Positions 9,331 through 56,791 of a stretch of 64,000 nucleotides of DNA are shown piece by piece. The notes below the pieces were generated by a model. The model was not told the origin of the DNA. It saw nothing but the letters and a program-made list of their open reading frames with translations, and searched no databases. The translations under genes were made by a program, and so were the position numbers. Source of the stretch: Biomaibacter acetigenes (lineage in GTDB: Bacteria > Bacillota > Thermosediminibacteria > Thermosediminibacterales > Tepidanaerobacteraceae); assembly GCF_003691585.1 (NCBI RefSeq), contig NZ_CP033169.1, positions 2,294,001-2,358,000 of the forward strand. The letters are read 5' to 3'. The first letter of the stretch is position 1. Each line of letters starts with the position of its first letter.

Positions 9331-10152
9331 CTAAAGTGCTTTTAATGCTTCTTCAGCTTGCTCTTTAGAAGGTGCTTTTCCGTGCCAGTCCACTATGTTT
9401 TCCATAAAGGGCACGCCTTTGCCCTTTACCGTTTTGGCAACGATTACTGTGGGCTTATCTTTGGTGTTTTTGGCTTCTTCTACGGCCTCAAGTATTTGAT
9501 TAAAGTCATGGCCGTCTATGTCGATTACGTGCCAGCCGAAGGCTTTGAATTTGTCCTGTATTTTCTCCGGTGACATGACCTGGGTGATGGGGCCGTCTAT
9601 CTGCAGGCCGTTGTGGTCTACAAAGGCCGTGAGGTTGTCCAGTTTATAGTGGGCCGATGCCATGGCTGCTTCCCATACCTGGCCTTCTTCTGTTTCTCCA
9701 TCTCCCAGCAGTACATATACTCTGTAGTCCTTTTTGTCCAGCTTCCCTGCCAGGGCCATTCCATTGGCGGCGGATAACCCCTGGCCCAGGGAACCGGTGG
9801 TCATGTCAAGGCCCGGCGTTCCTTTCATGTCGGGATGTCCCTGGAGCATGGCACCGGTCTTTCTGAGTTTCATGAGTTCTTCTTTGGGAAAATATCCTTT
9901 TTCTGCCAGCACCGCATAAAGAGCAGGGGCAGCATGCCCTTTTGATAGTATGAAACGGTCTCTTTCCGACCATGCGGGACGTTTTGGGTCCACTCGGAGC
10001 ACATTAAAATACAGGGCTGTCAGGATATCGGAACACGAGAGGGACCCTCCCGGATGGCCGGAACCCGCTTCGGCAGTCATCTCGACGATGTGCCGCCGGA
10101 TGGTGCGGGCCATGAATGTAAGTTCCTGGAGTTTTTCATTTGTTAAATTCAC
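9331..10152 (-). CDS. Transketolase, N-terminal (thiamine-diphosphate) subunit
   Basis: 273 residues. The GHPGGSLSCSDILTALY and SKGHAAPALYAVLAEKG motifs and the ThDP/Mg motif GDGETEEGQVWEAAMA...NLTAFVDHNGLQIDG are intact. First gene of the two-gene transketolase operon. A GAGGTGAT ribosome site precedes the GTG/ATG start region at 10152. Its upstream region (10153-10354) contains the unexplained 62-nt repeat and two strong hairpins, so a leader RNA is possible. Confidence 0.93.
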   Translation of the reverse strand: MNLTNEKLQELTFMARTIRRHIVEMTAEAGSGHPGGSLSCSDILTALYFNVLRVDPKRPAWSERDRFILSKGHAAPALYAVLAEKGYFPKEELMKLRKTGAMLQGHPDMKGTPGLDMTTGSLGQGLSAANGMALAGKLDKKDYRVYVLLGDGETEEGQVWEAAMASAHYKLDNLTAFVDHNGLQIDGPITQVMSPEKIQDKFKAFGWHVIDIDGHDFNQILEAVEEAKNTKDKPTVIVAKTVKGKGVPFMENIVDWHGKAPSKEQAEEALKAL

Positions 10153-10204
10153 TCAAATCACCTCTTCTAAATTTATACCTATTATTAAAGTATAATATTT
10201 CAAG

Positions 10205-10266
10205 TGTAAAAACTAAGTCTTCTACCAGGAGATGACAAAAAGCACAGTTTAGTGAAGTTGTCGCCG
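10205..10266. repeat. 62-nt structured dispersed repeat, copy A
   Basis: Begins with 19 nt identical to 56705-56723 (TGTAAAAACTAAGTCTTCT), continues with CC-GGAGAT, then a variable hairpin (GACAA / TTGTC here), and ends in GTCGCCG at almost the same spacing as the second copy (62 versus 61 nt). Constant ends and a variable stem suggest a structured RNA or small repetitive element. Strand unknown: it could be the leader of the transketolase operon on the minus strand. Confidence 0.55.
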
Positions 10267-10290
10267 CTCTTGAGTTTAGAACAAGCAGAG

Positions 10291-10350
10291 GAAAGGCGGG
10301 ACACGGATGCCCGCTGGCCGGCACCTGAAGCAGGATACCGAATTGCCGGC
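10291..10350. other. Two consecutive GC-rich hairpins beside repeat copy A
   Basis: GGCGGG / CCCGCT around 10295-10315 and GCCGGC / GCCGGC (10317-10322 with 10345-10350, enclosing an inner CCTG / CAGG stem). Together with repeat copy A the whole 150-nt gap is structured. On the plus strand it runs into CCGG followed by TTTTTATTTTT at 10360-10372, inside the end of the YitT gene. Confidence 0.4.
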
Positions 10351-10354
10351 GAAC

Positions 10355-11233
10355 CTACCGGTTTTTATTTTTCAGGGGAACCTTTCCCGACTCATTGCCA
10401 AAGCTGAATCCTTCCCCTAGCACTTCATGTACATCATGGACTATCACGAAAGCTCTGGGGTCCAGTTCATGGACTATGTTTTTCAGGCGTGTGAGTTCCA
10501 GACGCGTCACCACACACATAAGTACATTCTTTTCTTCGCCGGTATATGCACCTTTAGCTCCCAGAAAGGTTACTCCCCGCTCCATTTCATTTAATATTTT
10601 CCGGGAAATATTTTCTGCCTCATCGGAAATTATGTATACGGCCTTGGAATAATTTACACCTTCCTGAATAAGGTCTATTACCTTGCTGCTAACATAGAGG
10701 GCTATCCACGAATACATGGCAAGCTCCCAGTTAAAAGCCACACCATCAAGGCCTATTACAAAAAAATCTACAAAAAGGATACCCTGGCCTATGCTTACGG
10801 TGGGAATGAAGTAATTAATAAGCATGGCTGCCAGATCTGAACCTCCGGTGGAACCCCGGGCCCGGAAAACTATGCCCAACCCTGCACCCAGTATCAAACC
10901 TCCGTATACTGTGGAAAGGAGCAGGTCATGGGTAAGCACCGGGAAATTTTTTGTGGCCTCCGTAAATACCGAGAACAGCAGCGCCCCTGCCAGGGTCTTG
11001 AGCCCAAAACCCTTCCCTAAAAAAATTACCCCTGCCACAAAAAGCGGGATATTCATGGCCAGCATGGTCCATCCTACCGGCAAGCCAAAAAGGTAATGGA
11101 GTACTGTGGCAAGACCGCTCACACCCCCTGCTGCTACCTTGTTGGGCACCAGGAACATGGTGAGGCCAAGAGAACCTATAAATGAACCTATGACTATTTG
11201 CAGGTATTCCAGTAAAAAGGTTTTTATTTTCAT
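10355..11233 (-). CDS. YitT family membrane protein (DUF161 + DUF2179)
   Basis: 292 residues. Five or six N-terminal membrane helices (LQIVIGSFIGSLGLTMFLVP, WTMLAMNIPLFVAGVIFLG, and GLILGAGLGIVFRARGSTGGSDL) form the DUF161 part. The C-terminal cytoplasmic 80 residues (YSKAVYIISDEAENISRKILNEMERGVTFL...LKNIVHELDPRAFVIV) are the DUF2179 domain. The duplicated domain order is the standard YitT length. Family function is unknown, sometimes annotated as a putative transporter. Single gene, 142 nt from the WecG-type gene. Confidence 0.85.
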   Translation of the reverse strand: MKIKTFLLEYLQIVIGSFIGSLGLTMFLVPNKVAAGGVSGLATVLHYLFGLPVGWTMLAMNIPLFVAGVIFLGKGFGLKTLAGALLFSVFTEATKNFPVLTHDLLLSTVYGGLILGAGLGIVFRARGSTGGSDLAAMLINYFIPTVSIGQGILFVDFFVIGLDGVAFNWELAMYSWIALYVSSKVIDLIQEGVNYSKAVYIISDEAENISRKILNEMERGVTFLGAKGAYTGEEKNVLMCVVTRLELTRLKNIVHELDPRAFVIVHDVHEVLGEGFSFGNESGKVPLKNKNR

Positions 11234-55998: not shown

Positions 55999-56316
55999 CT
56001 ACAACAGATTCTCGTATTGTGATGCTCCGTAGAGAATACGCATAATTACCACTTGTTTTTCTTGTTCATCAACCAAATAGAATACAATATAATTATTTAA
56101 TATGAGTTTACGGTAACCTTTACTTTTAAGAATATCATCACCTACATAGCTGCCTGAATAAGGGAAACTTTTAAGTCGCGTAATCCGCTCTTCTATTTTA
56201 TCGATCAAATTATTTGCAGCCTGTTCTGCCAATAGGTTACCTGCAATATATTGATATATCTGCTCCAAATCGTTGTAAGCTACAGGCGTAAACTTTAATT
56301 TGTAGTTATTTGACAT
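55999..56316 (-). CDS. RelE/ParE-family toxin
   Basis: 105 residues. KLKFTPVAYNDLEQIYQYIA, then LIDKIEERITRLKSFPYSGS, YVGDDILKSKGYRKLILNNY and IVFYLVDEQEKQVVIMRILY is the ParE/RelE plasmid-stabilisation fold. The RelE-type mRNA cleavage or gyrase-poison role cannot be separated from sequence. Its start overlaps the antitoxin stop by 11 nt, so the pair is one operon. Confidence 0.9.
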   Translation of the reverse strand: MSNNYKLKFTPVAYNDLEQIYQYIAGNLLAEQAANNLIDKIEERITRLKSFPYSGSYVGDDILKSKGYRKLILNNYIVFYLVDEQEKQVVIMRILYGASQYENLL

Positions 56317-56569
56317 ATTTGTCTCTCAGTCTTTTAAAGACTTGTTCTCCATTTAAAAGAGGAACACCGTTTGTAACTTGCATTTCCGCTTCATTTAACT
56401 TCTTATAAACATCAGCAAGTGCAAAATGTTTTTCATATGTTTCAATGCTCATAATCACTAAATCTCCATACCCATTTTTAGTAATGAAAATAGGTTCTTG
56501 TTTTTGATGGCATATTTCCGAAATTTCATTTGTATTTCTTAAATCCGTTATAGGTCTAATTTGTGGCAT
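56306..56569 (-). CDS. Phd/YefM-family antitoxin
   Basis: 87 residues. IRPITDLRNTNEISEICHQK, then EPIFITKNGYGDLVIMSIET YEKH, is the Phd/YefM N-terminal fold, and the helical tail AEMQVTNGVPLLNGEQVFKR is the toxin-binding region. It represses its own promoter; an inverted repeat ATGAC / GTCAT (about 56592-56622) lies just upstream. Encoded before the toxin on the minus strand. Confidence 0.9.
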   Translation of the reverse strand: MPQIRPITDLRNTNEISEICHQKQEPIFITKNGYGDLVIMSIETYEKHFALADVYKKLNEAEMQVTNGVPLLNGEQVFKRLRDKYVK

Positions 56570-56704
56570 TAAATCAACTCCTTCAGGATTACTATGACAT
56601 TATTATAATATAATTCCGTCATAATTACAACATAATTATTTCTCAACCCTACATGCATTCCGTGGCTGGGTTTTTTCGGTTTTTAATGCTTTGTTCCGGT
56701 CTGA

Positions 56705-56765
56705 TGTAAAAACTAAGTCTTCTCCGGGAGATAGCTAAAATTAGCGATAAGCTATGCCGTCGCCG
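56705..56765. repeat. 61-nt structured dispersed repeat, copy B
   Basis: Shares 19 identical starting nt with 10205-10223, then CC-GGGAGAT, a variable hairpin ATAGCT / AGCTAT, and the GTCGCCG end. Lies in the tRNA - antitoxin gap (56570-56825), about 27 nt before the tRNA terminator. On the minus strand it would be the start of the antitoxin leader. Confidence 0.55.
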
Positions 56766-56791
56766 TTTTTTAGTGAAAACCTTCCGAGTAT

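Follow-up and report, generated by a model that had tools for sequence, protein, structure and literature searches.

Dispersed MITE-like elements of Bacillota with a TwoAYGGAY-like RNA core, a candidate mobile CsrA decoy

The two related repeats (copies A and B) in a 64,000-nucleotide stretch of the 3.40 Mb genome of Biomaibacter acetigenes (the window, C1:2294001-2358000) are best explained as pieces of a non-autonomous MITE-like element that carries a mobile, predicted CsrA-binding RNA of the decoy or sponge type, a reading to which we assign a probability of about 0.6. Under this scheme, a full copy, with its terminal inverted repeats and a long imperfect palindrome tipped by a conserved RNA core, would be inserted by a transposase acting in trans, with a 4-bp duplication in the host lineage. 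On transcription, the two GGA loops of the core would bind a CsrA dimer, and the element, retained while its ends change between lineages, would serve as a CsrA decoy or sponge RNA.

Both copies lie at the positions originally predicted. There are exact copies of the 17-mer TAAAAACTAAGTCTTCT at 10207 and 56707 (2 matches with up to 3 mismatches, compared with 0.31 expected), and local alignments with the full-length relative L045 score 102 for copy A (79/96 identical, window 10191-10284) and 60 for copy B (57/75 identical), whereas the top score among 500 mononucleotide shuffles of each is 26. Copy A also aligns with the sibling locus L011 (138/173 identical over window 10191-10356), and the BLAST match of copy B to the full element has an E-value of 3.2e-5. 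What had been described as a repeat unit of ~62 nt is actually the 5' (left) arm alone of an imperfect palindrome of ~250 bp, and the span then given to copy A is too short. The two GC-rich hairpins reported to adjoin copy A are indeed present but, rather than being separate neighbors, are the hairpins of the element's own core (Table 1).

Copy A lies between the minus-strand ORFs 9331-10152 and 10355-11233, with the AYGGAY strand antisense to both, and is cut short beside the stop codon of the latter. It is the only match in the window to the covariance model R1 introduced below (10263-10381, 33.8 bits, E 7.3e-6; the part beyond ~10357 is aligned but unpaired), and the inner 3-bp stem of its second hairpin is decayed (AGC/ACC). 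Copy B is flanked by a pair of minus-strand ORFs on one side and by two tRNA genes on the other. Both copies are probably decayed fossils, truncated and inert. The stem change on which the original prediction based its suggestion of covariation, GACAA/TTGTC in one copy and ATAGCT/AGCTAT in the other, is real, but two copies prove little and their fold z-scores are weak (-1.26 and -1.35), so that proof of covariation has to come from the wider family. A preQ1 riboswitch tail was considered for the 5' letters AAAAACTAAG, which we take to resemble the end of preQ1-I, and was ruled out, there being no such Rfam match on either strand; weak Rfam matches near the copies (snoRNAs, a GcvB-like terminator) are attributable to chance or to an adjacent terminator. 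Beside copy B, two overlapping small minus-strand ORFs (window 55999-56569) resemble, by eye, a RelE/Phd-type toxin-antitoxin pair.

Table 1. Parts of the element recognized in the window (window coordinates)
Feature	Position	Strand	Basis
Copy A, whole	about 10191 to about 10357		
Copy A, left arm: degenerate terminal repeat and 5' arm of the palindrome (the repeat first noticed)	10191..10262	+	L045 and L011 alignments
Copy A, TwoAYGGAY-like core: 5' strand and both hairpins, lacking the 3' arm	10263..10357	+	R1 match
Copy A, hairpin 1: loop ACACGGATG, GGA at 10305-10307	10296..10315	+	R1 alignment and sequence
Copy A, hairpin 2: stem GCCGGCA/TGCCGGC, loop with AGGAT, GGA at 10333-10335	10317..10350	+	R1 alignment and sequence
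Copy B, left-arm fragment only, lacking core and right arm (approximate ends)	56700..56774	+	L045 alignment, BLAST

The leading block shared by the two copies belongs to a family dispersed in the host genome, for which relaxed searches recovered further copies with longer homology, two of them full-length (L044, C1:993271-993523, and L045, C1:2937301-2937554); congeners likewise possess full-length elements. The search of the genome and its relatives that the original prediction proposed was productive: with L044 as the query, BLAST yielded 22 matches in the host genome and identified related sequences in 7 of the 13 genomes of its family. Among named contig records, 12 stretches match, 10 from Tepidanaerobacter/Tepidanaerobacteraceae and 2 from 'Bacillota bacterium isolate Bin_60'; no viral contig matched the core pattern.

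The mobility of the element is well supported. In the host lineage, its terminal inverted repeats are TGATTCYGGTGTARAAA and the complement. Of 47 candidate end pairs at loci of the family, 13 are bordered on the outside by a perfect 4-bp direct repeat, compared with 0.18 expected, and none by one of 5 bp. The 47 include some overlapping candidates, a 323-bp pair that is probably spurious, and L060 and L321, which probably represent a single insertion present in two species. An 8-bp duplication, guessed from the boundaries of one locus, was discarded after the candidate pairs as a whole gave 4 bp. The full copy L044 is absent from the orthologous site in the congener G001, where the flanking genes are the same and the matched blocks are 22 bp apart instead of ~303, which contradicts the possibility that full copies always occupy orthologous sites in all relatives. 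Sizes range from derivatives of 38 to 123 bp up to full length; short derivatives lacking the core keep the ends, and two of these (L154 and L156) have 4-bp duplications. Three palindromes of ~36-80 bp (G000:C1:741945-741980, 2763146-2763222 and 2822745-2822797) consist of little beyond the two ends of the element. No inward-facing end pair 0.5-4 kb apart, as in an autonomous parent, was seen by eye in the host genome, and no ends were found at the IS3/rve loci examined for a transposase partner; the IS3 content of the host (NF033516) amounts to two weak fragments. The full-length element L044 is followed, some 700 bp downstream, by a THF riboswitch (RF01831, 69.9 bits, L044:2475-2578).

Of 137 copies examined, 124 are flanked by genes on both sides, and of these, 44 are in sense and 47 in antisense orientation to both neighbors, 18 lie between convergent and 15 between divergent genes. 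This absence of bias (44 versus 47) speaks against a cis-regulatory role, which was ruled against on these grounds. By crude ORF calling, 46 of the 137 copies overlap an open frame of at least 90 codons. The lack of orientation bias is compatible with a plain MITE- or ERIC-like palindrome in which pairing is kept as a DNA inverted repeat (a cruciform or transposition hairpin), the RNA has no function, and GGA is inherited baggage. The terminal repeats, duplications and dispersal also agree with this explanation, as do the core-less derivatives that keep their ends. We nevertheless consider it unlikely, in view of the properties of the core.

The core consists of a closing stem and two adjacent terminal hairpins with GGA in the loops. 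For a seed alignment of 20 cores from the host's family (A1), RNAalifold predicted 42 pairs, 23 of these with compensatory changes; further pair types were below the level in shuffles (39 versus 44.1). At E <=0.001, the covariance model R1, built from A1, found matches in 42 of the 299 genomes searched from the phylum; copy numbers are lower bounds because at most 11 candidates were scored in each genome. In an alignment of 24 R1 matches (A2), 21 from outside the host's family and three (L108-L110) from within it, 39 of the 42 pairs changed on both sides and 90.4% of the cells pair, so that the covariance-model check proposed at the outset yielded strong covariation. The covariation score of A2 is 0.662, compared with 0.188 for shuffled and at most 0.110 for slid controls; being aligned to the model, A2 leans towards it, and both controls are far lower. 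An alignment of 44 cross-family sequences from sequence alone (MAFFT with RNAalifold) was too poor, with just 13 pairs, 11 of which have double changes, and we therefore rely on A1 and A2. Mean identity is 56%, and few columns are nearly invariant; those of GGA in both loops belong to them, an observation at odds with pairing kept purely as a DNA palindrome.

The original prediction, which offered a structured RNA or a small mobile element as alternatives, is borne out on both counts at once, but its statement that no known class fits has to be revised: the core is related to the TwoAYGGAY RNA (RF01731, clan CL00106), and the homology is well supported and, in our view, very likely. RF01731 has no match in the window or in the host genome at the Rfam cut-off of 43 bits, yet it scores 50.0 bits on a seed sequence from the host's family (G009c, G009:C12:38602-38763), and in an Rfam scan of distant R1 matches, RF01731 was above the cut-off for L122 (48.3 bits) and below it for six. 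In the 299 genomes, it matches 46 at E <=0.01, 29 of these over the cut-off, and none of the 14 control genomes. R1 and RF01731 agree on many loci, such as those in G069:C18 and G009:C12; among 60 loci recruited with RF01731, R1 finds 25 (E <=1), all 25 at the same place and 24 on the same strand. Given that the host copies fall below the cut-off while the models coincide, the element is a divergent relative and not a member by Rfam's rule. The core architecture, the places matched and the GGA in both loops are shared with TwoAYGGAY; the differences, apart from the score, are that the loops here often read CAGGAY rather than AYGGAY and that the core lies inside mobile inverted-repeat elements. 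For annotation, this means that the Rfam model misses a whole lineage. One TwoAYGGAY-like element adjoins a candidate ribosomal L20 leader that scores slightly below the Rfam cut-off (L113:1239-1369, 56.1 versus 58.7 bits).

A table in one paper lists the TwoAYGGAY motif as probably RNA and not cis-regulatory, a reading of its columns that depends partly on the table note (PMC2864571), and a passage of another proposed CsrA binding (PMC4333381); elsewhere, the motif is mentioned without a function in the passages concerned (PMC11701678, PMC7657543, PMC11661157). In those parts of the open-licence literature that were searched, TwoAYGGAY is not reported as a mobile element, and the combination of MITE, structured RNA and Firmicutes returned nothing; the text seen of the Rfam 12.0 paper mentions miniature inverted-repeat and CsrA, unconnected.

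In other families, for which boundaries were derived from pairs of near-identical copies, the same core is found between different ends. In G207 (family f18), 262-bp copies, two of them 100% identical, occupy different sites, with the ends CTGAGTTATCCCC...GGGGATACGCCAG and 9-bp duplications that are exact at L289, L291 and L293, 8/9 at L290 and 10 at L292; L288 in the same genome has no duplication. Ends resembling TCAGACTGTAGACAAA are found in G056, G141 and G133, where most of the resolved copies have, as judged by eye, a terminator-like hairpin repeated on either side, with an exact 18-bp duplication at the flanking hairpins of L257. At several loci (L256-L259, L235-L237, L239 and L220), the arrangement gives the impression that terminators are the insertion targets and that the entire hairpin is duplicated in the process. 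The length of the target duplication is characteristic of the transposase, and because the lengths differ, the core appears to have been mobilized by different transposases and to be kept while the ends change between lineages. That the core and its conserved unpaired motifs outlast a complete change of ends argues against inert palindromic DNA. It is also conceivable that the RNA core helps its own element to move, perhaps as the binding site of a transposase or of a host factor other than CsrA: the core accompanies the element in every lineage examined, and the short derivatives without it could be dead ends. We find this highly improbable, considering that the same core is found between unlike ends and with target duplications of more than one length, which probably means more than one transposase, and that core-less short derivatives have duplications of their own.

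Selection at the RNA level was assessed from the 1x1 mismatches on the AYGGAY strand, counted after folding with G.U pairs disallowed. Overall, G.U exceeds A.C by 100 to 49 (core, 47 to 21; arms, 53 to 28), with G.U ahead in 21 genomes, A.C in 7, and 3 ties, an excess that a DNA palindrome devoid of RNA function leaves unaccounted for. In 127 of 135 copies, a set recruited with models favoring this strand and these loops, the AYGGAY strand is the better-folding one; the difference between strands is -11.5 for the real and -6.1 for the shuffled sequences, so that composition accounts for about half of it, and an excess beyond composition was found in 47 of 59 copies sampled at random. In the window's genus and a near genus (G000, G001, G004 and G009), G.U is counted 6 times and A.C 11 times; the lack of G.U excess in this lineage is consistent with the palindrome explanation there and suggests that the element may have lost RNA-level selection in these genera.

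CsrA is a candidate ligand for the loops of the core. For 104 of 136 copies, the predicted fold has two hairpins and no others, each with GGA in its loop, and among the 118 two-hairpin copies, GGA is present in loop 1 of 111 and in loop 2 of 110; on the complementary strand, any such GGA hairpins are found in 3 of 136. The loops mostly read CANGGAYG or CAGGAYG (CANGGAUG/CAGGAYG), CAGGAU being the commonest form, with variable flanks; one subfamily in the host genome has lost GGA in loop 2 (ACAC). As far as the cited passages go, CsrA-sequestering small RNAs present GGA in hairpin loops, usually in pairs (PMC7652899, PMC4383904), the CsrB repeat is CAGGA(U/A/C)G, and the site selected by SELEX is RUACARGGAUGU (PMC7652899). 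The host encodes csrA (C1:877305-877457), as do 216 of the 299 genomes (PF02599) and 67 of the 73 carriers, defined as genomes matched by R1 or RF01731. When only assemblies with a completeness of at least 90% and a contamination of at most 5% are considered, csrA is present in 58 of 59 carriers versus 139 of 202 non-carriers (Fisher one-sided 1.3e-7, a statistic that ignores shared ancestry). Five of the six carriers without csrA are incomplete assemblies, and the other is G202 (94% complete). This association does not follow from the palindrome explanation. Binding of CsrA by the two-loop RNA, as predicted from the sequences, has a little under an even chance in our assessment.

A transcription insulator or terminator module, tolerated between genes with its loops unbound, would fit the high stability of the long hairpin (mean z about -8.8) and the many copies in G056, G141 and G133 next to duplicated terminator hairpins, but leaves unexplained the GGA in both loops, the co-occurrence with csrA and the strand asymmetry, and we give it very little credence. 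To our knowledge, no CsrB-like antagonist RNA has been established in CsrA-bearing Bacillota. The putative decoy resembles CsrA-sequestering small RNAs of the CsrB/RsmY type in its GGA hairpin loops, in the CAGGA(U/C)G form shared with CsrB repeats and in the presence of csrA in the genome; it differs in having two sites per RNA, in being a dispersed multi-copy mobile element and in its occurrence in Bacillota. The CsrA antagonist described for B. subtilis is a protein, FliW (PMC7652899).

TwoAYGGAY has been an orphan RNA since 2010. That the core rides in mobile elements explains its multi-copy state and the lack of a fixed gene context. The CsrA-sponge idea of 2014 gains support at genome scale from the near-exclusive co-occurrence with csrA; we know of no earlier support on this scale. 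As a tentative generalization, somewhat against the odds, TwoAYGGAY at large might be not a housekeeping small RNA but a CsrA-titrating cargo of non-autonomous mobile elements that underwent several changes of transposase and is near-restricted to CsrA-bearing Bacillota. If the proposed role is correct, a global regulator would be tuned by a mobile repeat, and several bacterial lineages would contain many natural CsrA decoys that are directly testable.

Like MITEs, the element is short, has no evident ORF of its own, is dispersed, and shows terminal inverted repeats, target duplications and internal-deletion derivatives; unlike them, it comes with no autonomous parent that we could find, and its conserved structured RNA is common to lineages with unrelated ends. 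Repeats of the ERIC and BOX types are likewise dispersed intergenic imperfect palindromes with conserved secondary structure, and differ, by description, in sequence and hosts. Some cores contain an extra hairpin, ACACCCACCTTCGGTGGGTACCCGG (positions 1501-1527 of L062, L063 and L064), with 93% identity over 27 bp to three other sites in the host genome that lie in repeated surroundings, presumably similar to a group II intron maturase gene.
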